From: a virus
Length of the DNA: 53,872 nucleotides
Reading direction: 5' to 3' (one strand)
Virus record (IMG/VR): IMGVR_UViG_3300008113_006865
Location: 1 to 53,872 of that record
Made by a program: the position numbers and the translations under genes
Notes under the pieces: generated by a model
What the model saw: the letters and a program-made list of their open reading frames with translations, nothing else
Databases searched by the model: none
Told to the model about the DNA's origin: nothing
In this document: piece after piece, positions 1,941 through 41,426 of the stretch
Numbering within the stretch: the stretch's first letter is position 1
Layout: each line of letters begins with the position of its first letter

Positions 1941-2711
1941 ATGCCGTCAATGAGCAATTTCACATCTGAATGGAACACTTACAAACTTAAAACTGAAACC
2001 GACCGTGGAATCATAGAAATCAAGTGGAGTGATGCAGATACTCTTGCCCAATGGTCTAACATCCAAGCTGGGTTGTATCTACAAAACGAAGCTTCATCTA
2101 GACAGCTATTCTATGAGCACTTTACTAGGTGGTATCAAATGTTCTGGAATCAACGGTTCCGTCAAGGAATTTTCAATCTATCAGATGATGCAGTTATAAT
2201 GGACATTGGATCTGGAGTAGCAGTTATAGATATGATTCTTGCAAAATATTTGCCCAAATCTAAATTCTATCTATTAGACAAGGAAGGATTTGAATTCTAT
2301 CCAGGTGTGTATTACGATTCAAATTATCCGCAATATCACAACTGGTCTCCAGTCATTGATGCTATTAAGACAAATGGATTTGAATCTAATAGATTTACAA
2401 TTTTAAATCAAGATTCTGCGTTTCCAGAGCAAGTGGATTGTATTACATCTTATTTGTCATGGGGTTGGCATTATCCTAAAGATGTCTATTGGGATAAAGT
2501 AATGGGTAGTTTGAAGATTGGCGGAATGTTGGTTATGGATCTTCGTCCTTTAGAAGATAGAGATATCATTGCAGAGATTACTGAAGATATGAAATCAGAT
2601 CCTGTTCTGCACCCGTTTGAAATCAAGTTACCCAAACATGTAGATAACAGACCAACACCTGATCCGTCTAAACCTTCAGGCCATAGAGCTATGTGGATAA
2701 GGAAAGGATAA
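1941..2711 (+). CDS. Class I SAM-dependent methyltransferase
   Basis: A 256-aa protein with a class I methyltransferase core: motif I is DIGSGVA at residues 88-94, followed by the second strand ending in an acidic residue (FYLLDKEGF) and a later strand LVMDLRPLEDRD. About 80 residues precede the core and may shape the acceptor site. The ribosome-binding site is AAAGGA. The 2OG-oxygenase gene begins three bases after the stop and the P450 gene overlaps that in turn, so the three form a plus-strand operon. The substrate cannot be read from sequence; a small molecule or peptide modified also by the oxygenases is a reasonable inference. Confidence 0.8.
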   Translation: MPSMSNFTSEWNTYKLKTETDRGIIEIKWSDADTLAQWSNIQAGLYLQNEASSRQLFYEHFTRWYQMFWNQRFRQGIFNLSDDAVIMDIGSGVAVIDMILAKYLPKSKFYLLDKEGFEFYPGVYYDSNYPQYHNWSPVIDAIKTNGFESNRFTILNQDSAFPEQVDCITSYLSWGWHYPKDVYWDKVMGSLKIGGMLVMDLRPLEDRDIIAEITEDMKSDPVLHPFEIKLPKHVDNRPTPDPSKPSGHRAMWIRKG

Positions 2712-2714
2712 GAA

Positions 2715-3341
2715 ATGCTTGAACCAGGAGTATCACGGGACATATTCCCTATTAAAATTTACGAAGCAGATTTCCCAAATTTTGAGGAAGTGCAGGAGAC
2801 TCTTCAGGCAGCAATCATGCCTTACTTTGATAACCCGGCATTAGGTAACGAATATGTCAGCGGGGATGGTGCCGCTATGATTATTCGTACTTGTAATGAC
2901 TTGCATAAAGATCCAGTGTTTAAAGAAGTTACAGATTTTATTGAATTCCACAGCAGGGAATATTGGAAACAACTTGCTTATACAACAAGAGTTGACCCGT
3001 ACATATTACAAATGTGGGCTAACGATATTCCTCCTGGAGGATTTACTCCTGCACACAACCATAACCCAGTTCCCGTTGGCGGTGCTTTTTATATCAATGC
3101 GACACCGGATAAAGGCAATCTATATTTAGAAGATCCTTTAGAAATGGTTCATGGTAAAGCCCCACGCGATTATATGCACAAACCTTACTTGTATACAGAA
3201 ACGATTGCAGTGAAGCCTGGCAAACTTATTATGTTTCCAGGATGGATGAGGCATCATACTAGGAGTAACATGACACAGGAAAATCGTTATGTTTTGGGAT
3301 TCAACATAGGTGCCTGGTTAAACTTTTTACCAAAGTCATGA
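2715..3341 (+). CDS. Putative 2OG-Fe(II) oxygenase (TIGR02466-like)
   Basis: A 208-aa double-stranded beta-helix protein resembling the family of putative 2OG-Fe(II) oxygenases common in aquatic phages. Likely metal ligands are H114 and H116 in the segment TPAHNHNPVPVGGAFYIN and H180 or H181 in MFPGWMRHHTRSN, with R191 placed to bind 2-oxoglutarate. A paralogue with the same motifs lies at 4449-5066 on the other strand. The gene sits three bases after the methyltransferase gene and its stop overlaps the P450 start (ATGA). Such enzymes hydroxylate proteins, nucleobases or small molecules; the target here is unknown. Confidence 0.75.
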   Translation: MLEPGVSRDIFPIKIYEADFPNFEEVQETLQAAIMPYFDNPALGNEYVSGDGAAMIIRTCNDLHKDPVFKEVTDFIEFHSREYWKQLAYTTRVDPYILQMWANDIPPGGFTPAHNHNPVPVGGAFYINATPDKGNLYLEDPLEMVHGKAPRDYMHKPYLYTETIAVKPGKLIMFPGWMRHHTRSNMTQENRYVLGFNIGAWLNFLPKS

Positions 3342-4471
3342 CGATCAATTATTTTAATCCCCATTCAAACGATTGGCTATTGAATAAATTTAGTTTTTAT
3401 GAAGAGATTAGAAATAATGAACGTGCTTACTGGAGTGATAAGTATAAATCTTTTATCATTACTAGATACAGTGATGTTTTATATGTTCTAAATAATTCTG
3501 ATATATTTTCATCAGCTAAAGGAAATTTAGTTGTTGAGAATACTAGTAGATTTGGAAACACACTTGGTGCTAGTGATGATCCATTACATAGTCTTTTTAA
3601 AAATATTGTTAAGAATGCATATAGTAAAAATAACCTACTACGTATAGAATCTTTATTTGTTGAGAAGGCTAAAGAACTTTTTAAAAAAGAATTAAACATT
3701 TCTTTGATATCCGAAGATCTATCAGCTTGGGTTGTTACGGAGATAATAAATCTCCCTTTTGATAAAGAAAAAATAAAAAATTTAATTTTAGGAATACAAA
3801 AACATGCTATGCAGTCAGTATTGGAAAATATTGATCAAAAATATTACGATGAATTTTTAGATATTCTAACAGATTGTATAATCAATAAAATAGAACCAAC
3901 AGGGCCTGGAATATATCAAGAGTATATGCACAATGTTCCTAAAAATTTTAATGTGCTTTCTTTATTTACAGGCCCCACATTATCAGGAGCAGGTTCGTTA
4001 ACTAGTGCATTGCAGTATCTTACTTTAGATGCTTGTGATAGTGTTGGAGAGTTACTTAGTAGTCCGTCATTAATACCAAATGCTGTTAATGAATCTCTTA
4101 GGTTACATGCGTCTACTGGAAGATTTTCTAGGACCGTTACGCAAAATGTATTGTTACATGGTATTAATTTAAAGGCAGGTGATAGGGTTATTGTTTGCCT
4201 AGATTCTGCTAACAGAGATCCGTTAATGTTTGAAAATCCAAATAAATTTTTAATTAGTAGAGATACCAACAAAAATCTTGCTTTTGGTCACGGCACTCAT
4301 GCGTGTATTGCGTTAGCCATAAGTAAATCACTTATGGCTTGCTATTTAAAAATATTGATAGAGGAAGTTGGGTATTATAAAATAGTTAATAAAAATTTTG
4401 AATTTGTTATGACACAATCAGGAAACAATGATATGATAACAAATCTTATCATTGGACCCATTGACCAGTGA
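3338..4471 (+). CDS. Cytochrome P450
   Basis: A 377-aa P450. The heme-binding loop FGHGTHACIALA (about residues 316-327, Cys ~323 as thiolate ligand) matches FGxGxHxC. An ExxR motif is present in NESLRLHAS (about 250-258), and an I-helix segment SGAGSLTSA near 213-221 resembles AGxxT. Length is a little short of the usual ~400 but all landmarks are present. It needs electrons from a ferredoxin, and no ferredoxin or reductase is encoded in the window, so host partners are implied. The start overlaps the oxygenase stop as ATGA, and the 3' end overlaps the convergent oxygenase gene by 23 bp. P450 genes are rare in phages. The substrate is unknown. Confidence 0.88.
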   Translation: MTINYFNPHSNDWLLNKFSFYEEIRNNERAYWSDKYKSFIITRYSDVLYVLNNSDIFSSAKGNLVVENTSRFGNTLGASDDPLHSLFKNIVKNAYSKNNLLRIESLFVEKAKELFKKELNISLISEDLSAWVVTEIINLPFDKEKIKNLILGIQKHAMQSVLENIDQKYYDEFLDILTDCIINKIEPTGPGIYQEYMHNVPKNFNVLSLFTGPTLSGAGSLTSALQYLTLDACDSVGELLSSPSLIPNAVNESLRLHASTGRFSRTVTQNVLLHGINLKAGDRVIVCLDSANRDPLMFENPNKFLISRDTNKNLAFGHGTHACIALAISKSLMACYLKILIEEVGYYKIVNKNFEFVMTQSGNNDMITNLIIGPIDQ

Positions 4472-5066
4472 GGTAATTTCCTGTAGAGCCAAAGTTAACG
4501 CCTAGTATTAGACGTTTTTCATTTGTAGTGTTTGGTTTTACGTAGTGACGCAGCCAGCCAGGAAACATAATAAAATCCCCAGTCTTCACCTCAATCTCAT
4601 AATGTAATTGCTCTTGTGCCTTATAGTCCATAGGCTGTGAAGAAAGAATAGCATCTAATGGGTTTTCTATTACCAAGTTGCCCATTGCTTTGTTAGCATT
4701 TACATACAACACACCAGTCAATGGCATTGCTCCGTGTAAATGGCTTCGTACCCAACCGCTGTGCGGGGTTTCATTTGCCCATACTTGTATAACTTTGGGT
4801 TCAAGCAAGTCAGAATATTTTAGTTCTTTCCAGTAAATCCTTGCATGTTCTTCTGCAAACTCTATTAGTTCCTTTGTTTCTGGAAAAGTTTGTAAGAAAG
4901 AATTTGTATGATATGTACACAATGTTCCATCTTGCATAGACTCAACATTATTAACTTTTGTTTTTTCAAACAATGGTTCTAACTTAGGGAACAAGTTATT
5001 TTTAACATCTTCTACATTGCTGTATTTTGTTTTATAAATTTTAATCGCAAACAAATCTAATGTCAT
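4449..5066 (-). CDS. Putative 2OG-Fe(II) oxygenase (TIGR02466-like)
   Basis: A 205-aa paralogue of the protein at 2715-3341. Likely metal ligands are H109 and H111 (RSHLHGAMPLTGVLYVNAN) and H174 (MFPGWLRHYVKPN), with R185 as 2-oxoglutarate ligand. It begins as ATGA overlapping the stop of the cupin-like gene upstream, so it is the last gene of a minus-strand operon running from 7228. Its own 3' end overlaps the P450 gene tail to tail. Two divergently placed paralogues flanking a P450 suggest a duplicated tailoring step on related substrates. Confidence 0.75.
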   Translation of the reverse strand: MTLDLFAIKIYKTKYSNVEDVKNNLFPKLEPLFEKTKVNNVESMQDGTLCTYHTNSFLQTFPETKELIEFAEEHARIYWKELKYSDLLEPKVIQVWANETPHSGWVRSHLHGAMPLTGVLYVNANKAMGNLVIENPLDAILSSQPMDYKAQEQLHYEIEVKTGDFIMFPGWLRHYVKPNTTNEKRLILGVNFGSTGNYLTGQWVQ

Positions 5067-5626
5067 TCGTCTTGTTTCCTAGTTATGTCTGCATAACCTT
5101 CTACAACATACGCATCAGGATTAAATCTTTTAATAAGTGCTTCTTGTAACGGACCCACAGTTGGTCCCTTCCACATGGATGCAATAGTAGTTGGTTCCCT
5201 AGTTTGCCAATGCTGAAATGCTATCAACGGAAATCCAATTTTCTCTGCTTCTAACCTTGAGCCAGCGCCATGTGATTCTCCATTTTTTAACACGTTACTC
5301 ATAATAGGAACTTTTGCATGAGTCATACTCATCTTAATTACTTCAACGCCAGGATGTTCATGATCTGGAACTTTAGGATGAGGATGAATAAGATACATCT
5401 CTACTTGAAAGCGACCGTGTCTAAAAATTGCTATTGCTGTTGCATCGTCAGATAAGAATACTTCTGGATTTTGCGGATATATCATAGGCATACCTGCCGC
5501 CATCCACCAGTCAGCAAATGATTTTACATCGGTCCAATTATCTGGGATCGCTAAATCTTCTTGTGGATGCACTGCCGGAAAAAACAACATCCCATACTGC
5601 GGTACATCAATTACTTTATCATTCAT
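5063..5626 (-). CDS. Cupin-like protein, 187 aa
   Basis: I chose ATG 5626 (MNDKVIDV) because it overlaps the end of the upstream gene by eight bases; a longer reading would run far into that gene. The product shows a cupin-type strand pair FRHGRFQVEMYLIHPHPK followed by the histidine cluster PDHEHPGVEVI, a plausible metal site. It is paralogous to the next gene upstream (5619-6116), which has the same order of motifs. Cupins of this sort bind metal and small ligands; enzymatic activity cannot be inferred. Confidence 0.6.
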   Translation of the reverse strand: MNDKVIDVPQYGMLFFPAVHPQEDLAIPDNWTDVKSFADWWMAAGMPMIYPQNPEVFLSDDATAIAIFRHGRFQVEMYLIHPHPKVPDHEHPGVEVIKMSMTHAKVPIMSNVLKNGESHGAGSRLEAEKIGFPLIAFQHWQTREPTTIASMWKGPTVGPLQEALIKRFNPDAYVVEGYADITRKQDE

Positions 5627-6116
5627 TGCTAGTTCCTTGTACGATCTTATCGTGTATATCCCCTGTAGTGTCGCCGTGCCAATGTGCTGTAACACTAGTT
5701 GGTTGTACATTATCTGGCCATTGCTCAATGCTTAGAAATGCAAAGCCTCTGTTGTATGTTGTTAACCCGTGAGTGTCGTTAGGATCTACTGTTACTTTTT
5801 GTTTAAACAAAATACTAGTTCCGTCCTCATTGACTTTATTAAAGTAAGGGGTAGGATCAGCAACAAAGTTGCCGTTAACAGTTGTATTGCCTTCTCCTGA
5901 TAGAAACATGATTATGCTTTTTACACCAGGGTGACTGTGTTCTGGAGTTACTGAGTCAGGGTCGCCAATATACATTTCTGCTTGAAATTGACCTTCCCTG
6001 TACAGCACTAATGCACTAGCATTGTTAGTTCTAAAAATAGCATTATGTTGTGGAGGACGGATAGGAAACCCTGATTCCTCGTACCACTGTGCAAATTCTT
6101 CTACAGTTTTCCACAT
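5619..6116 (-). CDS. Cupin-like protein, 165 aa
   Basis: Paralogue of the downstream gene: LYREGQFQAEMYIGDPD and PEHSHPGVKSIIMFLSGEG align with the corresponding segments there, including the HxHPGV histidines that usually hold the metal in cupins. The start MWKTVEEFAQWYEESGF aligns internally with the paralogue, so this copy is shorter at the N terminus. It starts one base after the SDR gene ends. An oxygenase, isomerase or ligand-binding role is possible. Confidence 0.6.
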   Translation of the reverse strand: MWKTVEEFAQWYEESGFPIRPPQHNAIFRTNNASALVLYREGQFQAEMYIGDPDSVTPEHSHPGVKSIIMFLSGEGNTTVNGNFVADPTPYFNKVNEDGTSILFKQKVTVDPNDTHGLTTYNRGFAFLSIEQWPDNVQPTSVTAHWHGDTTGDIHDKIVQGTSNE

Positions 6117-6117
6117 G

Positions 6118-6681
6118 TTAAATCCTCTTAATGTCGTTCCAATCTAAATCTGGAACCTCTACTAGTATATCTTGTACTGCAATTGTTGATTTAAACTCTA
6201 GTAAAGTATATATAAATTTTGCTAAATTATCAGGGTCTATCTTTTTAGAGTCAAACTCTTTAGACATCTCAGTATCTACCAATCCAACAGTGAAATTTAT
6301 AATGTACGGCCTTGCTTTAAATATTCTATTTTTAATTATTTCTTTTTGTTGATTCTTATCTTGCACGTATTTGGCCATATAATTAGGTATAGTCTTCATC
6401 AAAGTTGATTTACTATCAATGTTAATAATTGTATTAGTAGTTCCTTCCCACAATTCTATGGCATCATTCAATAACTGTTTTTGCGCATCTAGTGCATATG
6501 CATTATTGATAAAGATATTACAATTTTTTAAATTTTCAATTATTTCATTTCTAGATTTTTCATTTGTTATATCAAAGTTATTAGATTTACTAAATCCTAA
6601 AACCTCGTGTCCTTGGTGTTTAAAATGATCGTAAAGAGATTTTCCAATGCCGCGTGTGTGTCCTGTGATTGCTACTCTCAT
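6118..6681 (-). CDS. Short-chain dehydrogenase/reductase (short form)
   Basis: The 187-aa product opens MRVAITGHTRGIGKSLYDHF, the TGxxxGIG nucleotide-binding motif of the SDR family at residues 6-13, followed by a Rossmann pattern and an NN(A) segment (IFINNAYA, near 76-83). It is about 50 residues shorter than typical SDRs; the YxxxK catalytic pair is plausibly the Y-x3-K in MAKYVQDKNQQK. Short phage SDRs of this kind are known. It overlaps the methyltransferase fragment by 4 bp (ATGA). Likely an NAD(P)-dependent oxidoreductase or sugar epimerase; the substrate is unknown. Confidence 0.7.
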   Translation of the reverse strand: MRVAITGHTRGIGKSLYDHFKHQGHEVLGFSKSNNFDITNEKSRNEIIENLKNCNIFINNAYALDAQKQLLNDAIELWEGTTNTIINIDSKSTLMKTIPNYMAKYVQDKNQQKEIIKNRIFKARPYIINFTVGLVDTEMSKEFDSKKIDPDNLAKFIYTLLEFKSTIAVQDILVEVPDLDWNDIKRI

Positions 6682-7079
6682 AATACTCCACCGATTATAA
6701 TCATACTAAGTTGCGACCCCGGGGGATTAAATTTATGTATATCTAAATTTAAATTATGATCTAATAATTGTTGTTTAATTTCTTCTAACGTAAAACTTGC
6801 TCGTAAACTATTTTCAAAATCAATTTTGAATAACTCGTATTCAAATGGTTCTTTTTCTTTAATTATGATTTCTAATTCTTTTTCAGACTCAGGTCTTAAA
6901 AAATCAAATATAAGCACATCAACTGGATTAATACGTTTTACACTTTCCCAAAATTGTCCAGGTTCTATAAAATGATGCAACGCTAGTGATGATACTACTC
7001 TTTGATAATTGTCTGTTATTTCAGTAATTGCCATTTTTTTAAAAACAACATTGTCATGATTTTTGGTCAAATTTATCAT
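6678..7079 (-). pseudogene. Methyltransferase, C-terminal fragment lacking motif I
   Basis: The 133-aa reading frame begins in the middle of a class I methyltransferase fold. In-frame residues just before its ATG read ITGIDNSQAMINL, the end of the second beta strand, and downstream comes RVVSSLALHHF, the typical fourth-strand motif. The N-terminal part lies in another frame at 7076-7228. Between the two, about 40-50 residues including the glycine-rich SAM-binding loop are missing. As it stands it should not bind SAM. Either the gene is decaying or the fragment has taken a new role; the flanking genes remain tightly packed. Confidence 0.65.
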
Positions 7080-7228
7080 TGCTTGACTATTATCAATTCC
7101 AGTAATTTTTGTTTAACAGCTTTATAAATAGTTCTAAAAAATATTTTGGTATTGTTTCGGTCACTTTTATAGTAAGCTTCGGCCTGCTTTGAGTCTAACA
7201 TTAGTTCTGGTTCAGGAGTTCGTTTCAT
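7076..7228 (-). pseudogene. Methyltransferase, N-terminal fragment, 50 aa
   Basis: This frame opens MKRTPEPELMLDSKQAEAYY, closely resembling the EPELM-D-xQAxAYAxAD opening of a family of class I methyltransferases, then runs to a stop inside the start region of the C-terminal fragment (6678-7079). The junction shows loss of the SAM-binding loop plus a frame change, consistent with an internal deletion. It begins 38 bp from the divergent PP-loop gene. Confidence 0.6.
7123..7130 (+). promoter_or_regulatory. T4-late-like element TATAAATA
   Basis: An exact TATAAATA on the plus strand lies 137 bp before the PP-loop ATPase gene, within the broken methyltransferase gene read on the other strand. 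It could drive the plus-strand operon 7267-12208 with a long leader antisense to the methyltransferase fragment. The fit is by motif only. Confidence 0.35.
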
Positions 7229-7266
7229 AATATATTTATGTTGATATTTTTTAAGATATATAAGTT

Positions 7267-7599
7267 ATGGACCAGTCTTACGTATTAAAACCTACATGTT
7301 TTGAATTTACAGTAGAAGATCACTTTCCAAAATTATCCAAAAATAAAAAGGTTGGCGTGTTCCTTTCTGGGGGTATGGAGTCAAGTTTGATCAGTTTAAT
7401 CGCTAAAGAATATTACGGCGAAGAGCGTGTTATTTTCTTTTATTCTGATAACATTTTTTCTTCTAACGATCCTAAAAGAAACGAATATATACATACAAAT
7501 GTTAACCGTGCAGCAAAATTATTAAATATCGTTCCAACATATTTGGAATTTAACTATGACATGCACGTTAGTAATAGAAAGCAATCAATCCTGGAATGA
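7267..7599 (+). CDS. QueC-like PP-loop ATPase, N-terminal half
   Basis: The 110-aa product contains the PP-loop VFLSGGMESSLISLIA (residues 31-46; SGGxxSS), the pyrophosphate-binding signature of QueC, NadE and asparagine-synthetase-type ATP pyrophosphatases. It stops at 7599, where the next ORF begins as ATGA in the -1 frame and supplies the zinc-binding C-terminal half. In homologues these halves form one protein of roughly this summed length (about 250 aa). Either two coupled subunits, a -1 frameshift near 7575-7600, or a mutated gene. Such enzymes adenylate a carboxylate before amidation or nitrile formation; a role in 7-deazaguanine or in small-molecule tailoring is possible. Confidence 0.7.
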   Translation: MDQSYVLKPTCFEFTVEDHFPKLSKNKKVGVFLSGGMESSLISLIAKEYYGEERVIFFYSDNIFSSNDPKRNEYIHTNVNRAAKLLNIVPTYLEFNYDMHVSNRKQSILE

Positions 7600-8021
7600 C
7601 GGTTTCTAAAATTATGGAAATAGCTTATGCTGATCCAGTGAAGTATAAGTCTACCATTGAAGAATTTCACCTAGACAATAGGAGGTATGCCGATGGCTTA
7701 TTAGAGATAGATATTCCAGCTGAGGTATACCCACTACTAAGACAAACTTCTGGATTTATCAAAAGTCCGTTTAAGGATTTAAACAAAAGTGAAGTGGTTG
7801 ATTTTTATAGTCAACTAGGATTCATTGATAAACTGTATGGAACGAGTTCATGTATTATGGAAGATCTGACTACTAAAGGAAAACACTGCGGATCGTGTTT
7901 TAATTGTCAGCAAAGATGGGACGCTTTTAAAATTTTAGGAAGTATAGAAGATCTGACTGAGTATGAATCAGACAACATAAAACATTATAGAGAAGAATTA
8001 GAAAATGTTATTCATTCATAA
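7596..8021 (+). CDS. QueC-like PP-loop ATPase, C-terminal half
   Basis: The 141-aa product ends with KHCGSCFNCQQRWDAF, matching the CxxCxxC-R zinc motif at the C terminus of QueC-type proteins, and also carries a Cys earlier in TSSCIMED that may be the fourth zinc ligand. Its ATG overlaps the stop of the N-terminal half (ATGA). Upstream in this frame the reading continues backward with NRKAINPG, so a -1 frameshift would give a continuous protein. Its last 17 bp overlap the radical SAM gene. Confidence 0.7.
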   Translation: MTVSKIMEIAYADPVKYKSTIEEFHLDNRRYADGLLEIDIPAEVYPLLRQTSGFIKSPFKDLNKSEVVDFYSQLGFIDKLYGTSSCIMEDLTTKGKHCGSCFNCQQRWDAFKILGSIEDLTEYESDNIKHYREELENVIHS

Positions 8022-9168
8022 TACAGTCAGCTTATGTGATCATTGCTATAGGCACGTACCTGCAATTGTCTACGAAAAAGACAATCAAATATTGATGACT
8101 AAAAAATGTACAGAGCACGGAGAACTTACTAGTGTTGTAGAGATCGATACTGAATTTTATTATGGTCTAGAACATCATAGAGATATTGAATCATTTAATC
8201 AAATTTTGTTCGAGGCGAGTGATAGGTGTCAATTAAGTTGCCCACATTGCTATCACTTGCCAGACAATAAAATTACAGATAGGCCAATTTCAGAAATTAT
8301 AGAACAATTAAGTATATTCCCCAAAGATAGTGCTCCAATGCTAGCGGGTGCGGAGGCAACGCTAAGACCTGATTTTATTGAGTTATGTGAAGAGATTAAT
8401 AAACTTGACTTTAAGAAATTTGAATTACTATCTAACGGGTTACGTTTTGCAAACGAAGAATGGACACAGCAAGTATATGATGCCGGATTAAAAACAATGT
8501 GTTTAGGCCTAAATCATCCCAGTTATCAAGGAGAAACGGTCCATGCTAAACAACTCATTGGTTTACAAAATATGATAGATACAGGTTATCAAATTGGATA
8601 TGTTGGGTACACCATTGAAGATTACGAACATTTACCGTTTATTCTAAATGAGATCAAGTCTATAAATCACACCAGTATCAACCATTATAGAATACGCTGC
8701 GGAAGTTTTATTGGTCGAAGTAGTGATCAGCAACGTGGTTACCTTAGTAAACTTGTTAGTTTAGTTAAACAACACGTGGGAAGTGAAGTCGTAGCATATC
8801 CTTCAGATGACAACCCATATCATGTTATGCTACAATGGAATGATATTATATTACGACTAATACAATGGCCTGATGTTACAAATATTGATATGGAAGAACT
8901 TGCAACAGGACCTTGGTGTCAATTTTACGATGGCCCAGTTACAAACTTTGTACATCAGGTAATTACACGAGACGCTTATAAAAATATGAGTTTGCCCAAA
9001 TTAGACACAGTTCCAGAAAAATATCAGTATAGATCAATGACTGGACAACATACGGATTATTGGAAAAACACTTGGCAAGGTCCTGTAGAATTTTACCATT
9101 TTAATTGGGACTTTGATAGTATTTGTTTTACCCCTAACCGTAAAATTATTCCTATATTAATTGCTTAG
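8005..9168 (+). CDS. Radical SAM protein with N-terminal zinc motif (Tes/MJ0619-like)
   Basis: A 387-aa radical SAM enzyme: C75, C79 and C82 in DRCQLSCPHCYH form the CxxxCxxC [4Fe-4S] site. The N terminus has C11, C14, C35 and H38 in an arrangement (CxxC ... KxCTEHGE) like the accessory zinc domain of the MJ0619/tetraether-synthase group, which acts on pterin or lipid substrates. The segment LAGAEATLRPDF corresponds to the GGEP-like motif that binds SAM. It overlaps the PP-loop gene by 17 bp and is eight bases upstream of a second radical SAM gene. It is not PqqE: I see no C-terminal SPASM cluster. The substrate is unknown. Confidence 0.82.
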   Translation: MLFIHNTVSLCDHCYRHVPAIVYEKDNQILMTKKCTEHGELTSVVEIDTEFYYGLEHHRDIESFNQILFEASDRCQLSCPHCYHLPDNKITDRPISEIIEQLSIFPKDSAPMLAGAEATLRPDFIELCEEINKLDFKKFELLSNGLRFANEEWTQQVYDAGLKTMCLGLNHPSYQGETVHAKQLIGLQNMIDTGYQIGYVGYTIEDYEHLPFILNEIKSINHTSINHYRIRCGSFIGRSSDQQRGYLSKLVSLVKQHVGSEVVAYPSDDNPYHVMLQWNDIILRLIQWPDVTNIDMEELATGPWCQFYDGPVTNFVHQVITRDAYKNMSLPKLDTVPEKYQYRSMTGQHTDYWKNTWQGPVEFYHFNWDFDSICFTPNRKIIPILIA

Positions 9169-9176
9169 ATAATCTT

Positions 9177-10592
9177 ATGAATGATAATAATGTAATTTTT
9201 CTAACAGGTGTTATGACCCCGTGGTTCGAACGAAGCATTGCGGTATATCAACTTTCTAATTTTATAAAAAAACACGGGTATACAACTCAAGTAATAGATT
9301 TTATTCATTTGATACCAAAAAATGTATTGTTGGATTTGCTTAAAAAATTTACCAATAACAAAACTCAGGTATTAGCACTGAGTTCAACATTTATTGCCGA
9401 AGAGGTAACTTTGGGACTAACGAAAAAAACAGGAATAATTTCTAATGATTTACAACAGTGTTTGACTGAATATAAACTATTATTTCCGCATGTTAAATTG
9501 ATAGTTGGTGGTGCAAATGCAAGAAAATTTAAAAATAATAACTTGTTTGATTTTTATATTACTGGCTACGGAGAATTAGCCCTTTTAAATTTTTTAAAGA
9601 ATGGGGATACTAGATCTAGTAAATTTATTGATGGTGATATGTATCTTGGTAAATTTGATTCTTCTAAAATAGACCATATGTTTTGTGATCAAGATTTAAT
9701 TTTTGAGGGGGAAACTCTTCCAATAGAGATCAGCAGAGGTTGTATCTTTAGATGTAAATTTTGTGCTTATCCGTTAAACGGAAAACGAAAATTAGATCAT
9801 ATTAGAGATGTTGATTTAATAAAAAACGAATTGATTAATAATTATGAAAAGTGGGGAGTTACTAACTATCTAATACTTGATGATACATTTAATGACAGCA
9901 ATGAAAAATTAATAGAACTTCATGATATGATAGTTGCTTTACCTTTCAAAATAAATTTTGTATGTTATTTGAGGGTAGATTTGTTGTATCACTTTAGGGA
10001 TACACAAATAGAAATGTTAGAACGTATGGGTCTTAAATCTTGTCATTTTGGTGTAGAGAGTTTTAATCCTAAAACTGCTAAATTTATTGGTAAGGGATTA
10101 AGTGAAGATAAAACAAAAGACTTTCTTTTGTTTTTAAAAGAAAGATGGCAGAATAAAATTAGTTTTATGTGTACATTTATTGTTGGGCTTCCATTTGAAA
10201 CAAAAGAAAGTTGTATTGAAACTGGCGAGTGGTGTGTCAAAAACGATATAACATTTTGGACAATGCCTCTGTTTATAGATCCCGCACGAACATATAAAAG
10301 TGATATTGATATCAACTATGAAAAATACGGATATGTATTGAATCAAGATGATTGTTCATGGACAACTGATTTTATGACTTTCCATGAAGCACTACAAATA
10401 TCTAATAGATTTACAACAGATCACAATGACCATAAAATATCTGCTTGGAATATGTTTGCATTATTAACTTTTGGGATATATTCCATTGACGAGTTATATC
10501 ATATGACATACCGTGAATTACATACTGACTCTAATAGAACAATTTTTCAAAATAAAGTTAAAAGTTATATAGAAAGATTGAATAGATTATGA
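9177..10592 (+). CDS. B12-binding-type radical SAM protein
   Basis: The 471-aa protein has an N-terminal Rossmann-like domain resembling a cobalamin-binding domain (TQVIDFIHLIP ... VKLIVGGANARKF ... DFYITGYGELAL, roughly residues 1-140) and a radical SAM core whose cluster site is SRGCIFRCKFCAY (Cys about 188, 192, 195). The DxHxxG cobalamin motif is not evident, so cobalamin may bind base-off or not at all. Family members perform methylations, ring contractions and methylthiolations. The gene overlaps the next one by ATGA, placing both in one operon. Confidence 0.8.
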   Translation: MNDNNVIFLTGVMTPWFERSIAVYQLSNFIKKHGYTTQVIDFIHLIPKNVLLDLLKKFTNNKTQVLALSSTFIAEEVTLGLTKKTGIISNDLQQCLTEYKLLFPHVKLIVGGANARKFKNNNLFDFYITGYGELALLNFLKNGDTRSSKFIDGDMYLGKFDSSKIDHMFCDQDLIFEGETLPIEISRGCIFRCKFCAYPLNGKRKLDHIRDVDLIKNELINNYEKWGVTNYLILDDTFNDSNEKLIELHDMIVALPFKINFVCYLRVDLLYHFRDTQIEMLERMGLKSCHFGVESFNPKTAKFIGKGLSEDKTKDFLLFLKERWQNKISFMCTFIVGLPFETKESCIETGEWCVKNDITFWTMPLFIDPARTYKSDIDINYEKYGYVLNQDDCSWTTDFMTFHEALQISNRFTTDHNDHKISAWNMFALLTFGIYSIDELYHMTYRELHTDSNRTIFQNKVKSYIERLNRL

Positions 10593-11167
10593 ACGAGTGG
10601 ATTATAACTTCTGATAACAATTGTCAAGAATGGCAAGACATTTATAAAATTGCTGTTAGTGATAAAGATCATTTGCTTTGGGAAAATTATCAAAAAATTG
10701 ATTTAGACACATACGAACATATGGTTGTGAATATTCGAGATGGTATTCCTGCTGCATTTCACGGAGTGTACAATCACGGACGCTGGCCTACTAATTTTAG
10801 TAGAATATGTAATAGGGCATATATCAATCCTCATTTTAGAAATTTAGGACAAGGTCTTGAGATCACTAGTACCAATATCAAGTTTGCATTGGACAACTAC
10901 TCTCGTTGGGGTAAAGATGTGTTGTTTATTACTAGAGGAGTACAGTACGATAATGTAGAAATTAGTTGGCGTAAATTTGAGAAGTTTGTTAAGTTCTTAA
11001 AATCAACTACTGGTTATACTGATTTAACATACGATAATAGACTTTACAACTGCTGTGATTCAGGTTGCAAAGATTGCTATCAATTTGCTGTTTGGTACAA
11101 CCCAAAAAAAATCAAAATCACAGTTAATAGTATTACACAAGAGGATTGGAAAAATTTGTCTCAGTAG
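10589..11167 (+). CDS. Possible GNAT-type acetyltransferase, 192 aa
   Basis: The product has a strand-turn-helix segment ICNRAYINPHFRNLGQGLEI (residues 70-90), reminiscent of the acetyl-CoA loop (V-x-P-x-R-x-x-G-x-G) of GNAT enzymes, though the match is incomplete. A Cys-rich stretch NCCDSGCKDCYQF (near 152-164) could bind metal. It overlaps the radical SAM gene by ATGA. I call it a GNAT with limited confidence. Confidence 0.45.
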   Translation: MNEWIITSDNNCQEWQDIYKIAVSDKDHLLWENYQKIDLDTYEHMVVNIRDGIPAAFHGVYNHGRWPTNFSRICNRAYINPHFRNLGQGLEITSTNIKFALDNYSRWGKDVLFITRGVQYDNVEISWRKFEKFVKFLKSTTGYTDLTYDNRLYNCCDSGCKDCYQFAVWYNPKKIKITVNSITQEDWKNLSQ

Positions 11168-11174
11168 AATTACT

Positions 11175-11182
11175 ACTAAATA
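11175..11182 (+). promoter_or_regulatory. T4-late-like element ACTAAATA, five bases before ATG
   Basis: ACTAAATATTTCC directly precedes ATG 11188. With normal late-promoter spacing transcription would begin at or beside the start codon, and no ribosome-binding site is visible, so the message could be leaderless. Confidence 0.4.
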
Positions 11183-11187
11183 TTTCC

Positions 11188-11667
11188 ATGACTGATGCAT
11201 TAACACATTTAGATTATTCAATTGACACTACTGCTTTATTGGATTCAGCATCTAAAGCAAAATTAGAGTCAAAACCTTATACTGATTCTAGGTATCCAGA
11301 TTTAAAATTAGATAGATGGCATATTGGACATTTTACTGATGACTACATTAAAAAGATAATGCAAGATTTTGAGGTGGACGGCAAGCCAAGATTTTATTGG
11401 CTAGAGCCATTCGCAGAAATTCCAGAACATGTTGATAATGGAACATTGTGTTCTATTAATTTAATAGTAACTAAAGATCCGGCTCCTATTACTATAAACG
11501 GAGAGGAATTTTTTTACAAGCAGGCATTGTTAAACACTGCTATTCCTCATGCTGTATTCAATGGGCCGCATGAAAGGATAATGTTGAAAATATCTATTTT
11601 TGACGAAACATACGAACAATTAAAAAATCGAATAAAATACAAGGCAAAAGAAAATGCTAATAACTAA
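11188..11667 (+). CDS. Fe/2OG oxygenase-like (aspartyl hydroxylase-type) protein
   Basis: I chose ATG 11188 (MTDALTHLDYSIDTT); an upstream ATG at 11146 lies inside the previous gene. The 159-aa product has the HxD pair in EIPEHVDNGTLCSINLIV and a distal histidine with a basic residue in IPHAVFNGPHERIMLKIS, the layout of small double-stranded beta-helix dioxygenases related to aspartyl/asparaginyl hydroxylases. It overlaps the next oxygenase gene by 14 bp. One of five such enzymes in this island. Confidence 0.6.
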   Translation: MTDALTHLDYSIDTTALLDSASKAKLESKPYTDSRYPDLKLDRWHIGHFTDDYIKKIMQDFEVDGKPRFYWLEPFAEIPEHVDNGTLCSINLIVTKDPAPITINGEEFFYKQALLNTAIPHAVFNGPHERIMLKISIFDETYEQLKNRIKYKAKENANN

Positions 11668-12208
11668 AACAGATATTACTGTTGATTTAGATCAAATACG
11701 TAAAGACTTGGAACACGTACTTACACTACAAAAGTGGCCGTCTCCGCCGCCATTTTCTAAATTGCCACACAATCAAATTTGTCTTAATCACAGAGAAGGA
11801 TCCAACGATCCCTGGTTAGAGGGTGCTGGCAGTTTAACGGATACTGGATTGTTAGAGTCAGATTTTGATATTTTTAACGACGGCGTTCCAGAATATACAC
11901 AAACTGTTTTAAAAAATCTAGCTCATCAACAAGGTGTCAAGTTTGGACGTATTCGTTATATGAGAATGCCATCCAAATCAGGATTATCAGTTCATGTTGA
12001 TCTTGAATATAGATATCATTTAGTATTGCATACAAATAGATTTGCAATGTTTGGTCATATATATGAAGGTGATGACGAACTTGGCAAAGTTTATCATATA
12101 CCAGCGGATGGAACGTTTTATAAAGTAGATACTAGATTAGGCCACTTTGTTTACAACGGCGGTTGGGAAGATCGCATTCACTTAGTTATTTGTGTTATTG
12201 ATCAATAA
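11654..12208 (+). CDS. Fe/2OG oxygenase-like (aspartyl hydroxylase-type) protein
   Basis: The 184-aa product contains HVD in KSGLSVHVDLEYRYHLVLH and a distal histidine in TRLGHFVYNGGWEDRIHLV with arginine two-thirds of the way between the two, consistent with a 2OG-dependent dioxygenase. The start codon overlaps the preceding oxygenase gene by 14 bp; the 3' end overlaps the convergent oxygenase gene at 12182 by 27 bp. The substrate is unknown. Confidence 0.6.
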   Translation: MLITKTDITVDLDQIRKDLEHVLTLQKWPSPPPFSKLPHNQICLNHREGSNDPWLEGAGSLTDTGLLESDFDIFNDGVPEYTQTVLKNLAHQQGVKFGRIRYMRMPSKSGLSVHVDLEYRYHLVLHTNRFAMFGHIYEGDDELGKVYHIPADGTFYKVDTRLGHFVYNGGWEDRIHLVICVIDQ

Positions 12209-12901
12209 CGTGTAAGCAGACGGCAATACACTTAAAAATAATTGCATCACATTAAATCCTGTAGTTGATGCATCATGCACTAGTGATGTATCAATAATAT
12301 ACACACGACCCGGCTCATAGTCAACTAGTTCTAATTCACCCGTTGTAGGATTATAAAATCTCAGTGCTACATCTTTACTAGTTGCTGCCCACAATCTAAT
12401 CCACATACTAGGTACCACTGTATCAATGTGCGGGAAGAAAAATGCTCCGCTGTGCCACTTTAATATATTACTTCTACACCAGTGGTTGTCAAACATACGT
12501 AACGGACTTAATGAAGGCAAGTTTAAAACTTCTGTTGGTCTTATGCAATCAGTTTCGATTAATGGGTGTGTTGGGTTATTTCTATTCCATGCCATGAGAG
12601 AGCCGTTTATAGGATCATTATCAATTAAGTCACCTGATTGATTTACAACTGCGAGACCATAACGTTGTAGGTGTTGATGATCAATCCCCCATTTTTGAAA
12701 CTTGTTATTATATTGTTTTACTTGCATATTAAATGCATTACAATCAATAACTATGTTAGTTGGAGTCAAAGGAAAAGGATGAAGACGTTTATAATCTTCA
12801 TCCTTTACTACACTAGTACAATTTCTAAAAATTTCAGCAGCACCTGATTTCTCAAATACTGCAACTGTTTCATCTATGATTTTTTGTGCATCTATTTTCA
12901 T
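12182..12901 (-). CDS. Fe/2OG oxygenase-like protein next to pqqA
   Basis: The 239-aa product has HID in AFFFPHIDTVVPSMWIRLW and a distal histidine in YIIDTSLVHDASTTGFN, the metal triad of a double-stranded beta-helix dioxygenase, with a ~120-residue N-terminal region of unknown fold. It starts only 17 bp after the stop of the pqqA-like gene and in the same direction, so the two are co-transcribed; a late-type element (TGTAAATA, 12907-12914) in the gap could also give a leaderless message from its own ATG. Position makes it the prime candidate to act on the PqqA-like peptide or a derivative, but this is inference. Confidence 0.6.
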   Translation of the reverse strand: MKIDAQKIIDETVAVFEKSGAAEIFRNCTSVVKDEDYKRLHPFPLTPTNIVIDCNAFNMQVKQYNNKFQKWGIDHQHLQRYGLAVVNQSGDLIDNDPINGSLMAWNRNNPTHPLIETDCIRPTEVLNLPSLSPLRMFDNHWCRSNILKWHSGAFFFPHIDTVVPSMWIRLWAATSKDVALRFYNPTTGELELVDYEPGRVYIIDTSLVHDASTTGFNVMQLFLSVLPSAYTLLINNTNN

Positions 12902-12918: not shown

Positions 12919-12990
12919 TTAACGATTCATCACGTACATAGTGATTTCAAATCCAAAACGCATATCAGTTGCTGTTGGTGTTGTCCACAT
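12919..12990 (-). CDS. pqqA: PqqA-like PQQ precursor peptide, 23 aa
   Basis: A 23-codon ORF with a strong ribosome-binding site (AAAGGAG, eight bases before ATG). The peptide starts MWTTPTATDMR and ends FGFEITMYVMNR. It matches PqqA over its whole length: MWxxP, D9-x-R11, GFE(V/I)TMY and terminal NR, with Glu15 and Tyr19, the two residues that are cross-linked and become PQQ, at the same positions as in 23-residue PqqA peptides. PqqA is bound by PqqD and modified by the radical SAM enzyme PqqE; pqqB, C, D and E are not in this window. The gene lies between ahpD and a dioxygenase gene, all on the minus strand. A phage copy could raise PQQ supply in a PQQ-using host such as a methylotroph, or be the substrate of a new pathway. 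Confidence 0.9.
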   Translation of the reverse strand: MWTTPTATDMRFGFEITMYVMNR

Positions 12991-13048: not shown

Positions 13049-13085
13049 ATTATACTAGAGAAATAGTTTGTTTCACATAGTGAAA
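13049..13085 (-). promoter_or_regulatory. Promoter with palindrome upstream of pqqA
   Basis: A minus-strand TATAAT (13049-13054) lies 59 bp before the pqqA start. The -35 region is poor but coincides with a perfect inverted repeat TTTCAC-ATA-GTGAAA (13071-13085), so activation or repression at this site is likely. An AT-rich hairpin (TTAATTTTAC-GATA-GTAAATTAA) between this and the ahpD stop may separate pqqA from the ahpCD transcript. Confidence 0.5.
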
Positions 13086-13108: not shown

Positions 13109-13615
13109 TTAACTATTCAAAACCTTAGCAACTGAATTCATTACACTGGCAATACGACCAATGTCACGAAGTTGTTCTACTGTATAGCCTTCTGTCTTCA
13201 ATGTCTCGTAATGTGCTTTTACACAGAAGTGACACTTGCCCACAATGCTTGCTGCCAACGAGAATGCTTCAAAGTTTGACTTAGTAGTTCCACCATGACT
13301 AGCAATAGCGTTCATGCGTAACTGTGCTGGCAGTCCTTTAAGAGCAGGATCTTCGGCCATTTCAACATATGGATACCATACATTGTTCTGTGCCATAATG
13401 CTCGCGGCCGTCATTGCTGACTCGGCGTGTACAGGTGCATCGGCAAGTATTACTGATAGAATTTTACCGTTGCCAGTTGCGGCCAGTGCAGCCACAGCAC
13501 AACCCATGGCCACATCAGCATCTAACGTACTACGCAAAAGAACAGCGTCAAGATTTAACTTGGTGTCCTTTGCGTAGTCTGGCAACGCTGATTTAACTGC
13601 GTCGATGAATGCCAT
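13109..13615 (-). CDS. ahpD: AhpD-like alkylhydroperoxidase
   Basis: The 168-aa product is a full-length AhpD: the catalytic segment GKCHFCVKAH has C128 and C131 with H135, closely matching the Cys-x-x-Cys and His of mycobacterial AhpD, and ASHGGTTKSNFEAF corresponds to the neighbouring helix. AhpD passes electrons from a lipoylated partner to AhpC. The start codon shares one base with the ahpC stop (TAATG), so translation is coupled. Together they reduce peroxides, which would protect an infected cell and Fe-dependent enzymes. Confidence 0.9.
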   Translation of the reverse strand: MAFIDAVKSALPDYAKDTKLNLDAVLLRSTLDADVAMGCAVAALAATGNGKILSVILADAPVHAESAMTAASIMAQNNVWYPYVEMAEDPALKGLPAQLRMNAIASHGGTTKSNFEAFSLAASIVGKCHFCVKAHYETLKTEGYTVEQLRDIGRIASVMNSVAKVLNS

Positions 13616-14175
13616 TATAGTGTCTCTCCGCCTACTGTACGGTTACAAGCACACAGTTCGCCAGTTTGTAGCGCATCCAATACACGAAGTGTTTCTTCTG
13701 GGCTACGACCAACGTTCAAGTTGTTGACAGTAACGTGTTGGATAACGTTTTCTGGGTCGACAATGAATGTTGCGCGAAGTGCGGCGCCTGCCGGTGCATA
13801 GAAGACGCCCAGTTGTTCAATCAAACTAACACTGCCACGTTCTTCGCCACTTTGGTGACGAGCAGTGTCAGCAAATTGAGTATGAGTAATTTTCTTCAAA
13901 TCAGCATGGGCCATTTGCCATGCTGTTTTACAGAACTCATTGTCTGTTGATCCTGTAAGCAATACTGCATCGCGATCAGCAAAGTCTTGCGTCAACTTGT
14001 CGTAGGCTACAATTTCTGTAGGGCAAACGAATGTGAAGTCTTTTGGATAGTAAACGATTACTTTCCACTTGCCTTCAAAACTCTGGTCTGTGATTGTGAA
14101 GTATGCGTCTTCTGGTTGTCCTGGCTTGACCCCTGTGATTGCAAATGCTGTTAATTTATCGCCAACTGTTTTCAT
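13615..14175 (-). CDS. ahpC: AhpC-type peroxiredoxin
   Basis: The 186-aa 2-Cys peroxiredoxin has the peroxidatic Cys51 in DFTFVCPTE and the resolving region GELCACNRTVGG (C175/C177) near the C terminus, plus a conserved ATFIVDP strand. It reduces hydrogen peroxide and organic peroxides. A strong ribosome-binding site (AAGGAGA) and a TTGATT-N17-TACAAT promoter precede it. The ahpD gene follows directly and probably supplies the reductant, since no AhpF is present. Confidence 0.93.
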   Translation of the reverse strand: MKTVGDKLTAFAITGVKPGQPEDAYFTITDQSFEGKWKVIVYYPKDFTFVCPTEIVAYDKLTQDFADRDAVLLTGSTDNEFCKTAWQMAHADLKKITHTQFADTARHQSGEERGSVSLIEQLGVFYAPAGAALRATFIVDPENVIQHVTVNNLNVGRSPEETLRVLDALQTGELCACNRTVGGETL

Positions 14176-21860: not shown

Positions 21861-21883
21861 AAAAGAAACCCGCCGAAGCGGGC
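21861..21883 (-). terminator. Rho-independent terminator of the tmRNA transcript
   Basis: Minus strand: CCCGC-TTCG-GCGGG followed by TTTCTTTTT, a GC stem with a stable UUCG tetraloop. It ends the csp-peptide-tmRNA transcript just before the ATPase promoter. Confidence 0.9.
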
Positions 21884-21887
21884 TCTG

Positions 21888-22222
21888 CTATTTTCGGTGA
21901 CAAGGTATAACTACCTCGCAAGTGCAGTTTCTTAGGCTGCTAATTCGAAACGCTCAGCATTGGCAGCGCGAGCTACTGATGCTGGAACTTCGAAAAACTT
22001 GAATGTATTTGCGTTTGCATTTACGAGTTTTGCTTGGATTACGTCCATCGCCTATCGTGTTGCCGTCTCTATTATCTCACCCTGTCGAAACCATGGCAGG
22101 CCCGTCAAAAACGCACTACAAGGTTGCCCATTATTAAGAGGGGTGTAGTGCCCGTTTGGTGGACGTGGCGAGAGTCGAACCCGCGTCCAGAATGCCTTCA
22201 CTTTGAAGGGATTACAACAATT
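21888..22222 (-). ncRNA. ssrA: Circularly permuted (two-piece) tmRNA gene
   Basis: Reading the minus strand, the acceptor half comes first: the hairpin CCTTCA-AAG-TGAAGG (22195-22209), then GGACGCGGGTTCGACTCTCG (T arm) and an encoded ACCA ending at 22157. After an intervening segment with the 8-bp hairpin GCACTACA/TGTAGTGC, the coding half begins at 22103 with GGGCCTGCCATGGTTTCGAC, the tmRNA 5' signature, and carries the tag reading frame. In ordinary ssrA genes the order is the opposite, so this gene is permuted like those of Alphaproteobacteria, some Betaproteobacteria and Cyanobacteria. The 7-bp acceptor stem forms with one G-U and one C-C mismatch. It rescues stalled ribosomes and marks incomplete proteins for proteolysis. 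Outer limits are approximate. Confidence 0.88.
21932..22018 (-). other. tmRNA tag reading frame, 28 aa
   Basis: From the resume codon GCA (22018, context GTAAATGCAAACG) the tag reads ANANTFKFFEVP, then ASVARAANAERFELAA, and ends at TAA. The last ten residues, ANAERFELAA, resemble a complete betaproteobacterial tag (ANDE-type ending in ALAA), so the reading frame looks like a normal tag with an 18-residue extension in front. The small hydrophobic end (LAA) is the usual ClpXP recognition signal. A ClpS gene at 40553 may influence tag delivery. Confidence 0.75.
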
Positions 22223-22224
22223 CC

Positions 22225-22293
22225 TTAAAAAATGAAATGTACAAATAAAAATATAACAATTAAAACTGCTACAATCAATTCGTACGATTTCAT
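22225..22293 (-). CDS. 22-aa membrane peptide
   Basis: A 22-codon ORF, MKSYELIVAVLIVIFLFVHF plus IF, begins twelve bases after the csp stop, with GTAGGAA as ribosome-binding site. After five polar residues the whole peptide is one hydrophobic helix. It is co-transcribed with csp and tmRNA, and its stop lies at the presumed 5' edge of the tmRNA acceptor piece. Such peptides can be toxins, membrane-protein regulators or lysis timers; the role here is unknown. Confidence 0.5.
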   Translation of the reverse strand: MKSYELIVAVLIVIFLFVHFIF

Positions 22294-25284: not shown

Positions 25285-27327
25285 TTATTTCTCGTGGGCT
25301 ACGAATTCGCCGTTCCAATTGTCGCCTAGATCCTGCTGTTTCATAAACTCGCAGCGTTCAATCCAAATTTTGTAATACTTGTCCATTTGACCGCCAAACA
25401 GACCATTCATTATAGCACACATGGCCGCAGCCTCGTCAAACTTTTTGGCTTTATATAAGGCATGCATCTGGTTGTGTTGCTCAAGATCTTTACTATAGTC
25501 TGCACCTTTAGTGCGTAATACTGTATAGATTAAGTCTGCTACAGTTTTACCTTTTGGTTGTAAGTTATCTAACAGCAAATAGAAGAAATCATCTTTAGTA
25601 CGGTTATAAGTTTCAGCACCGACAATGGCCAACACGCCATATGCTTTACAACGTGCTTCTAAACGTGCGGCTGTTGAAACCATATCACCTAATATGTCGT
25701 AGCTGTGTCGTTCTGTTGAACCCATCTCACCAATAAAGCCAATACCAGTATTACAACCCCAACCCATTGCGGCTGGTGGTAAACCTTGTGCTTCCATTAG
25801 TTTAGTATACTTGTCAACAGCATCCAACATCTCTAAGCCTACTTTAACGATAGTACGAGCATGATTTGGATCTTCAATAGGAGCACCGTGTATGTGCATA
25901 CTGGCATCACCCACATACTTGATGACCATACCTTTGTTATCTAACATGGGCTGACTGATAGCATCCATGTAACCGTTCATATACTTGCCTAGTCCAGCAA
26001 CGTCATCGCCGTAGTGTTCACCAATAGGAGTAAATCCACGTAAGTCACTAAACATAACTGATACGTCTTTACGCACACCCCGCTTGATTAAGTCTGGATC
26101 TTTTTGTAATAACTCTACTACTTCTTTTGAGCAGTAGCCAGCAAACTGTTTCTTAATTGCTTGCTTTTGCAAGAACTCACTTACAAACTTAACCCCATAA
26201 GTATGAAGAGCAACAATAATAAGCCCCAACGAGATCGCTGTCGCATCTCCCAGGATGAGCCAATTATTGAAAGCGTAAATAGTGCCAGGAACGACGGCAC
26301 CAATAATAACCACAGTAGCACCAATTCCAACATAAGTCCACCTCGATAAGAAAATTAGTAATAACCCAAATATTACTAATGCAATAATTTCGGCACCATC
26401 TGCATAGTCTGGACGTTGAATAACAACGCCATTAATCATTGTTCCTAACACTGCTGCTTGAACATCTTGTGGAAATATTGCGCCTTTGCTAGTTGGTACT
26501 GGGTTACTAATACCAGCTGCTGTTGGTCCAATAATTACAATTGCACCATGTAAATCTTTAGGTAAGTCTATTAGACTTACTTGTTTGTTTTCTTGACTCC
26601 AATCTATCCATACACGACCTAACGCATCTGTAGTAACAGGCCCAAACTTTGGAATACGCATTTTCTCAACGCCATTCTCATTTAGTTTAACTTGGAACGT
26701 CGAGTCGCCTGCTGCCACACGTAATGCTTCCATAGATATACTAGGATATAGTTTACCGTCTACAGATACAACTAATGGTAGTCTTCTATTAACACCGTCA
26801 ACTTCTTCAAGTGTGCTAACAATACCTATGCCTGCCGCTGAATTTTCTAATTGAGGAATGTTAGCAATTAGACCAGGATACTGAACTATTTGATCTAACC
26901 ACTCTGGGCCTAGTACAGCACTGCCTGGATTACGCGGTGTATTCTTAGTCTTTTGTGATGGCACACTGCCCAGCACTACTGGATAATTTTTAAGAGCAGT
27001 TGCAAGAACAGCATCTCCACCAGTACGATCAGACTCAGCCATGATAACATTGAGCACAACAAGGCCAGCGTTACGATCATACAAATCTTTAATAATTTTC
27101 GCATACTCTGCCCTCGGTAGTGGCCATTGACCATATTTGTCTAACGCAGCCTCATCTATGTTTACTGTGTAAATGTTGTTAACAGTAGGTGCTTTATTTG
27201 TAATCAATGTGTCAAAGTAACGTAGTCTTACACTTTCTACAAATACAGGATCAGCAATTCTTATACTTACAATAAGTGCCAATGTTAATAAAGCAGTCCA
27301 AGGACTTGTTAGGATTTTTTTCATCAT
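25285..27327 (-). CDS. CHASE2 sensor adenylate/guanylate cyclase
   Basis: A 680-aa inner-membrane protein: N-terminal transmembrane helix, periplasmic CHASE2 domain (about 30-310; typical INRRLPLVV-like segment GVNRRLPLVV), three further transmembrane helices (about 315-390) and a class III nucleotide cyclase domain (about 415-610) with metal-binding Asp in VSVMFSDLRGFT and the VIKYVGDASM segment. It probably makes cAMP in response to a periplasmic cue. A complete receptor cyclase is unusual for a phage. It overlaps the upstream gene by one base (TAATG). Confidence 0.88.
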   Translation of the reverse strand: MMKKILTSPWTALLTLALIVSIRIADPVFVESVRLRYFDTLITNKAPTVNNIYTVNIDEAALDKYGQWPLPRAEYAKIIKDLYDRNAGLVVLNVIMAESDRTGGDAVLATALKNYPVVLGSVPSQKTKNTPRNPGSAVLGPEWLDQIVQYPGLIANIPQLENSAAGIGIVSTLEEVDGVNRRLPLVVSVDGKLYPSISMEALRVAAGDSTFQVKLNENGVEKMRIPKFGPVTTDALGRVWIDWSQENKQVSLIDLPKDLHGAIVIIGPTAAGISNPVPTSKGAIFPQDVQAAVLGTMINGVVIQRPDYADGAEIIALVIFGLLLIFLSRWTYVGIGATVVIIGAVVPGTIYAFNNWLILGDATAISLGLIIVALHTYGVKFVSEFLQKQAIKKQFAGYCSKEVVELLQKDPDLIKRGVRKDVSVMFSDLRGFTPIGEHYGDDVAGLGKYMNGYMDAISQPMLDNKGMVIKYVGDASMHIHGAPIEDPNHARTIVKVGLEMLDAVDKYTKLMEAQGLPPAAMGWGCNTGIGFIGEMGSTERHSYDILGDMVSTAARLEARCKAYGVLAIVGAETYNRTKDDFFYLLLDNLQPKGKTVADLIYTVLRTKGADYSKDLEQHNQMHALYKAKKFDEAAAMCAIMNGLFGGQMDKYYKIWIERCEFMKQQDLGDNWNGEFVAHEK

Positions 27328-34932: not shown

Positions 34933-34934
34933 AA

Positions 34935-39333: not shown

Positions 39334-39341
39334 ATATTTAG
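39334..39341 (-). promoter_or_regulatory. T4-late-like element GCTAAATA
   Basis: Minus-strand GCTAAATATTAGT directly precedes ATG 39329, another predicted leaderless start. Confidence 0.45.
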
Positions 39342-41343: not shown

Positions 41344-41376
41344 TTTAATATCTCCTTAAATTAAGCAAGAATAATT

Positions 41377-41403: not shown

Positions 41404-41404
41404 A

Positions 41405-41412: not shown

Positions 41413-41426
41413 ACGTCTGTGTGTGT

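Follow-up and report, generated by a model that had tools for sequence, protein, structure and literature searches.

A predicted pqqA gene on a probable large freshwater phage, and its unannotated counterparts in cultured phages of Methylophilales

The 53,872-nucleotide stretch analysed here, referred to as the window, is taken from an IMG/VR virus record (IMGVR_UViG_3300008113_006865) and carries a 23-codon gene which, judged from its sequence, is a genuine pqqA, specifying the peptide precursor of PQQ. The probability that this is a true pqqA on a large T4-like freshwater phage, acting as an AMG which supplies the PQQ precursor to the PqqBCDE enzymes of the host, is put at about 0.84. A phage-borne PqqA feeding a host with pqqBCDE, probably a methylotroph, had been proposed in a preliminary description of this DNA, and the proposal appears well supported by sequence and by the comparison with cultured methylophages given below. 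The features at and around the gene are:

12182..12901, minus strand: downstream gene, possible Fe(II) oxygenase; HxD...H pattern (PHID..., LVHD) in the translation
12919..12990, minus strand: pqqA, 23 codons (MWTTPTATDMRFGFEITMYVMNR) and stop; translation, Pfam PF08042, NCBIfam TIGR02107
12998..13004, minus strand: Shine-Dalgarno sequence AAAGGAG, 7 nt 5' of the pqqA ATG, read directly
13049..13076, minus strand: candidate sigma-70-like promoter GTGAAA-16-TATAAT, about 60 bp upstream of pqqA; 10/12 consensus matches
13109..13615, minus strand: AhpD-like peroxidase gene, upstream of pqqA; Pfam CMD, NCBIfam AhpD below cut-off
13615..14175, minus strand: AhpC-like peroxiredoxin gene; Pfam AhpC-TSA

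Both the ATG of pqqA, at 12990, and its stop codon TAA, at 12921-12919, were read directly on the minus strand. The preliminary description had noted a 23-codon frame with a strong ribosome-binding site and a likeness to PqqA in length, in its MW...NR ends and in the Glu15-x3-Tyr19 core; all of this is borne out, the strand being added. The Pfam PqqA profile (PF08042) matches with 36.5 bits against a cut-off of 21.1 (E=5.8e-10, in a search of the whole 59,062-bp record); this is the single match in the record, and 0 of 14 control genomes gave one. NCBIfam TIGR02107, "PQQ_syn_pqqA", scores 37.8 bits against a cut-off of 20, a result unaffected by the one-codon offset of the query peptide, which had an extra N-terminal Thr and was without the final Arg. 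A PDB sequence search with the 23-residue peptide gave no match. The frame passes the family cut-off, contains Glu-x3-Tyr and, at 23 residues with its own start codon and ribosome-binding site, falls within the approximately 22–29 residues expected of a PqqA. Sites resembling sigma-70 promoters are not enriched around the gene (11, against 8.5 ± 3.4 in shuffled sequences), so that the candidate promoter is weak evidence.

The source record contains a T4-type rIIA and other phage families, together with genes for the small subunit of ribonucleotide reductase, DnaK, HSP20 and a curli-related, CsgF-like protein. Since relatives of its rIIA sit on contigs of up to 270 kb, and relatives of its AhpD (92–98% identical) on contigs of up to 357 kb, the record probably covers only part of the genome of a large freshwater phage, one of a T4-like lineage. 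The AhpD scan of viral contigs yielded at least 599 stretches, the best 80 of which (92–98% identity) were analysed, and pqqA was present in 13 of these 80 loci. In eight of the 13 it begins, as in the window, some 110–120 bp beyond ahpD and in the same orientation, and the gene order ahpC-ahpD-pqqA recurs in related phages. Among the long records of the window lineage 8 of 24 carry pqqA, the 24 including four picked from the pqqA pattern scan described below. Absence of the frame from all close phage relatives had been named beforehand as an argument against a phage pqqA; the gene is present in the lineage, though patchy, and the patchiness would fit loss or gain with the host.

Several other loci of the window are recorded here as observations in their own right. 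A permuted tmRNA of betaproteobacterial type lies at 21864-22273 (minus strand; Rfam RF04321 and RF01850), where ARAGORN finds none. HSP20 and a full-length DnaK are encoded at 40906-43295 (minus strand), the latter 70–74% identical to betaproteobacterial DnaK. At 39341-40556 (minus strand) a heme oxygenase gene (Pfam 8.9e-23) adjoins one for a ferredoxin-dependent bilin reductase (1.3e-14), a bilin-making pair situated here on a phage with a betaproteobacterial-type tmRNA and not on a cyanophage. A protein with CHASE2 and adenylate/guanylate cyclase domains (25288-27327, minus strand) represents a phage-borne membrane sensor cyclase.

As to the host, the window DnaK is 70–74% identical to those of Methylophilaceae and Comamonadaceae alike, similarity of the tmRNA is confined to one short segment, and tetranucleotide usage is weakly closer to that of low-GC methylotrophs. 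Among the bacterial peptides compared the nearest to that of the window are PqqA of Methylophilaceae, with 19 of 23 residues identical; the codons of the gene are unlike those of every bacterial allele compared (best 58/69 nt).

A tblastn search of 50,697 phage records with the peptide returned 12 hits, nine of which are records of Methylophilales phages: P19250A, Venkman, MEP301, MEP401, MEP402 and four of Melnitz. The other three are an uncultured podovirus from a spring and two contigs filed under "Acinetobacter phage MD-2021a"; the latter was rejected as a PqqA phage, the contig examined being a bacterial chromosome with ppk and pqqBCDE. A PqqA query of the Methylobacterium extorquens type revealed nothing new among the phages. 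All eight records tested, the window included, pass the Pfam cut-off. The phage genes are stand-alone ORFs of 23–24 codons, their products 68–83% identical to that of the window over the aligned peptide, and the peptide of P19250A is exactly MWTTPAATEMRFGFEVTMYVMNK. None is annotated as pqqA: in five isolates the ORF is not annotated at all, and in Melnitz and the spring podovirus it is overlapped by an opposite-strand hypothetical gene. In the isolates examined the gene always goes unannotated because it is so short.

According to the paper on MEP401 and MEP402, which leaves PQQ unmentioned, the only earlier OM43 phage isolates are Venkman, MEP301 and Melnitz (PMC10580990); the nine records, within the 50,697-record collection, thus cover to our knowledge every described OM43 isolate, together with the freshwater LD28 phage. 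The isolates fall into unrelated groups (P19250A/Venkman, MEP301, the Zobellviridae MEP401 and MEP402, and Melnitz of the Kyanoviridae), which implies that pqqA was acquired repeatedly and independently in several phage groups. Promoter scans around the isolate genes revealed no consistent promoter. Pelagiphage HTVC008M, a phage of SAR11 named as syntenic with Melnitz (PMC9004378), was searched for PqqA and none was found. Of the 36 Venkman-type contigs whose neighbouring recombinase is at least 62% identical, 31 retain pqqA, and two or more of the five without it break off beside the gene; the count is 0 for the remaining 44, nearly all of which show 53% recombinase identity or less. In the MEP402 lineage 39 contigs extend far enough to hold the gene beside its neighbour, and 4 of them have it there; one contig scored as negative at that spot (L447) carries pqqA elsewhere in its record. 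On balance we lean towards the view that pqqA is a near-universal, overlooked signature of phages infecting PQQ-dependent methylotrophs, independently acquired in several groups.

The viral contigs of IMG/VR were also scanned with a degenerate DNA pattern for GFE[VI]TMY, which gave at least 120 loci, and all 120 matches listed are PqqA-type ORFs of 23–25 residues. As the pattern fixes the seven residues of GFE[VI]TMY, their conservation is by construction, and pN/pS was therefore computed outside the motif as well; for the 94–95 distinct viral alleles among the matches listed the overall value is 0.19, and that outside the searched motif 0.30. Outside the motif W2, P5 and R11 are invariant in the 23-residue alleles among these matches. 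Upstream, 76 of 119 viral pqqA ORFs among the matches listed have a match of at least 5/6 to AGGAGG within 20 nt, as against about 4% of random 20-mers. Viral pqqA is, as far as its alleles tell, under purifying selection. Among the matches listed the gene neighbours vary from locus to locus, and the commonest peptide, again MWTTPAATEMRFGFEVTMYVMNK, is identical to PqqA of Methylotenera and other Methylophilaceae. PqqD was sought in 16 pqqA-bearing viral records, that of the window included, and none was found. A 72-kb viral contig, L053 (IMGVR_UViG_3300025120_009955), carries pqqA about 6 kb from a 628-residue ORF resembling PQQ-repeat dehydrogenases, the two being placed at these record positions:

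34406-35671: PQQ-repeat dehydrogenase-like ORF
41887-41943: pqqA

An alphaproteobacterial-type PqqA (MKWSAPIVQEVCVGMEVTSY...DTFN) was seen on no more than two viral contigs, which come from a single sample (L537, 2715-2801, plus strand; L536, 4408-4494, minus strand), one of them adjoining a phage-type DNA polymerase gene. These two cases suggest that phages carry the PqqA type of their host class.

PqqA and PqqE are widespread in putative hosts. PqqA was found in 121 of the 121 Methylophilaceae-family genomes searched, with at least two copies in 118 (range 1–12) and one to three in streamlined genomes of about 1.2–1.4 Mb. PqqE exceeds its cut-off in 18 of 20 host-type genomes, the two without it being assemblies of 0.7–0.9 Mb that are probably incomplete. 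One PqqA is consumed for each PQQ made, its Glu and Tyr being cross-linked by PqqE/PqqD. With no radical SAM protein in seven complete pqqA-bearing phage genomes, neither PqqD nor a radical SAM protein encoded in six representative isolate genomes, and no PqqD in the 16 viral records, the enzymes must be those of the host. The phage would thus supply the precursor peptide alone, from a gene with its own strong ribosome-binding site, neither PqqD nor PqqE having been found in the record; host PqqD would bind the peptide, host PqqE would cross-link Glu15 with Tyr19, and host PqqB, PqqC and proteases would trim it and finish PQQ. Since each PQQ uses up one peptide, the phage copy would sustain cofactor output during the shutdown of host transcription, and with it PQQ-dependent alcohol oxidation, which in methylotrophs means methanol dehydrogenase (MxaF/XoxF). 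A boost in PQQ during infection is what we infer, and known pathway chemistry supports it: conversion of added PqqA to PQQ by a cell-free extract reached 70–80% in work cited in PMC9851590. Overexpression of pqqAB in Acetobacter raised PQQ by 29%, and the gains from a few pqq genes in engineering were found to be modest (PMC7936290).

Other explanations turn largely on the surroundings of the gene. The 17 bp that the preliminary description had counted between pqqA and the next gene (12901-12182, minus strand) are correct, and the nearby island of radical SAM and oxygenase genes is real (radical SAM, P450 and 2OG-Fe oxygenase genes). The naming of the next gene as a dioxygenase is plausible by its HxD...H pattern alone, Pfam, NCBIfam, PHROGs and PDB lending no family support. 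Its expected conservation beside pqqA in relatives did not hold: no other pqqA locus compared has this gene next to pqqA, its single homologue among the viral loci compared lies on a contig (L304) without pqqA, and a search of viral contigs for relatives confirmed none. It is regarded as a neighbour and not counted towards the PqqA function. The island itself (1941-12205) combines P450 and several 2OG/Fe oxygenase genes with split AsnB/QueC-like genes and two radical SAM genes of unusual type, and has the look of a phage-borne small-molecule pathway. Its presence within 11 kb, and the HxD...H pattern of the adjacent gene, are what could recommend the peptide as the precursor of a different modified product made by these enzymes, an idea that is highly improbable. 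The radical SAM protein at 8005-9165 is Tes/TrsS-like and scores 18 bits with the PqqE profile against a cut-off of 381 (NCBIfam); that at 9177-10589 is of the B12-dependent PhpK type, and the PqqE profile is not among its NCBIfam matches. As neither is PqqE and both genes lie on the strand opposite to pqqA, beyond the downstream gene, a phage-made RiPP is unlikely. The core residues and ends are moreover those of a canonical PqqA, the seven complete phage genomes have pqqA without any radical SAM gene, and the conserved co-location of precursor and maturase by which a RiPP cluster is recognised was not found, neighbours varying among the pqqA loci. The earlier suggestion of a new peptide product is left unsupported. 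The short gap to the downstream gene could equally point to a leader or regulatory ORF with no functional peptide, to which we attach hardly any credence: the amino acids are conserved amid synonymous variation, to the degree given by the pN/pS values above, and across many unrelated gene contexts, several isolates carry pqqA outside any annotated operon, and in P19250A a terminator-like hairpin follows it after about 70 bp.

Two further explanations accept the peptide as PqqA and dispute its benefit. Competition for host PqqD and PqqE is chemically possible, and hosts already possess several pqqA copies, so a phage PqqA might be pictured as a decoy that limits PQQ; but the commonest viral peptide among the matches listed is the host's own substrate and should therefore be converted, L053 pairs pqqA with its dehydrogenase-like ORF, and the Lake Baikal phages are reported with methanol dehydrogenase (PMC7678222). 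Glu15 and Tyr19 are unsubstituted in all viral matches listed, a weak test as both lie inside the searched motif. Such a decoy is barely credible. Patchiness in the window's lineage is what a passive passenger from the host, of no selective value, would lead one to expect. This too is very unlikely, in view of the presence of pqqA in every cultured Methylophilales phage found, from unrelated groups, its retention in close Venkman-type contigs and absence from the others, nearly all more distant, and the purifying selection and conserved ribosome-binding sites.

For the reading of pqqA as an AMG we count its location in a phage record (rIIA, phage families), the occurrence of homologous genes in cultured phages with complete genomes and the selection seen in phages. 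Against it are counted the patchy occurrence in the window lineage, the non-decisive host signals and the modest engineering gains (PMC7936290); moreover, PqqA need not be limiting, since hosts already have several copies. Given that each cultured Methylophilales phage found carries pqqA, such viruses probably supplement the host's supply of its methanol-oxidation cofactor during infection.

The window gene resembles PqqA of Methylophilaceae (PF08042, TIGR02107) in length, MW start, R11, Glu15-x3-Tyr19 and NR/NK end, and differs in standing alone on a phage, beside ahpC-ahpD and not with pqqBCDE. Viral PqqA is already known and the window is not its first instance: Lake Baikal phages VP_266 and VP_139, reported in 2020 with PqqA and methanol dehydrogenase (PMC7678222), are likewise T4-like freshwater phages of methylotrophs with PqqA as an AMG. 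The gene pair on L053 matches that report, whereas a search of the window's 59-kb record for a PQQ-repeat dehydrogenase found none. Virus-encoded pqqA, pqqD and pqqE in reservoir sediments, classed there as phosphate-solubilisation genes (PMC13188868), likewise place pqq genes on viral contigs, a comparison made by description only. With P19250A, Venkman, MEP301, MEP401, MEP402 and Melnitz the window shares a short stand-alone PqqA ORF, unannotated in the isolates, but not the phage group or the gene neighbourhood. The Baikal paper concerned one lineage, and the present comparison all Methylophilales phage isolates found; what is new is the near-universality of unannotated pqqA across these cultured phages (50,697 records).

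Convergent capture of a stoichiometrically consumed precursor, without the enzymes, would be an economical way of steering a cofactor. Venkman, Melnitz and MEP301, grown on OM43 strains, are existing culture systems, and the effect of the phages on PQQ and methanol oxidation is therefore directly testable. The peptide may help to assign hosts, its alphaproteobacterial type having turned up only on the two viral contigs from one sample. If pqqA is indeed a signature gene of such phages, infected methylotrophs would depend on phage PqqA to charge their lanthanide- or calcium-dependent methanol dehydrogenase with PQQ, and the peptide would both mark the hosts of uncultured viruses and be a point at which viruses control the oxidation of C1 compounds in lakes and coastal seas.
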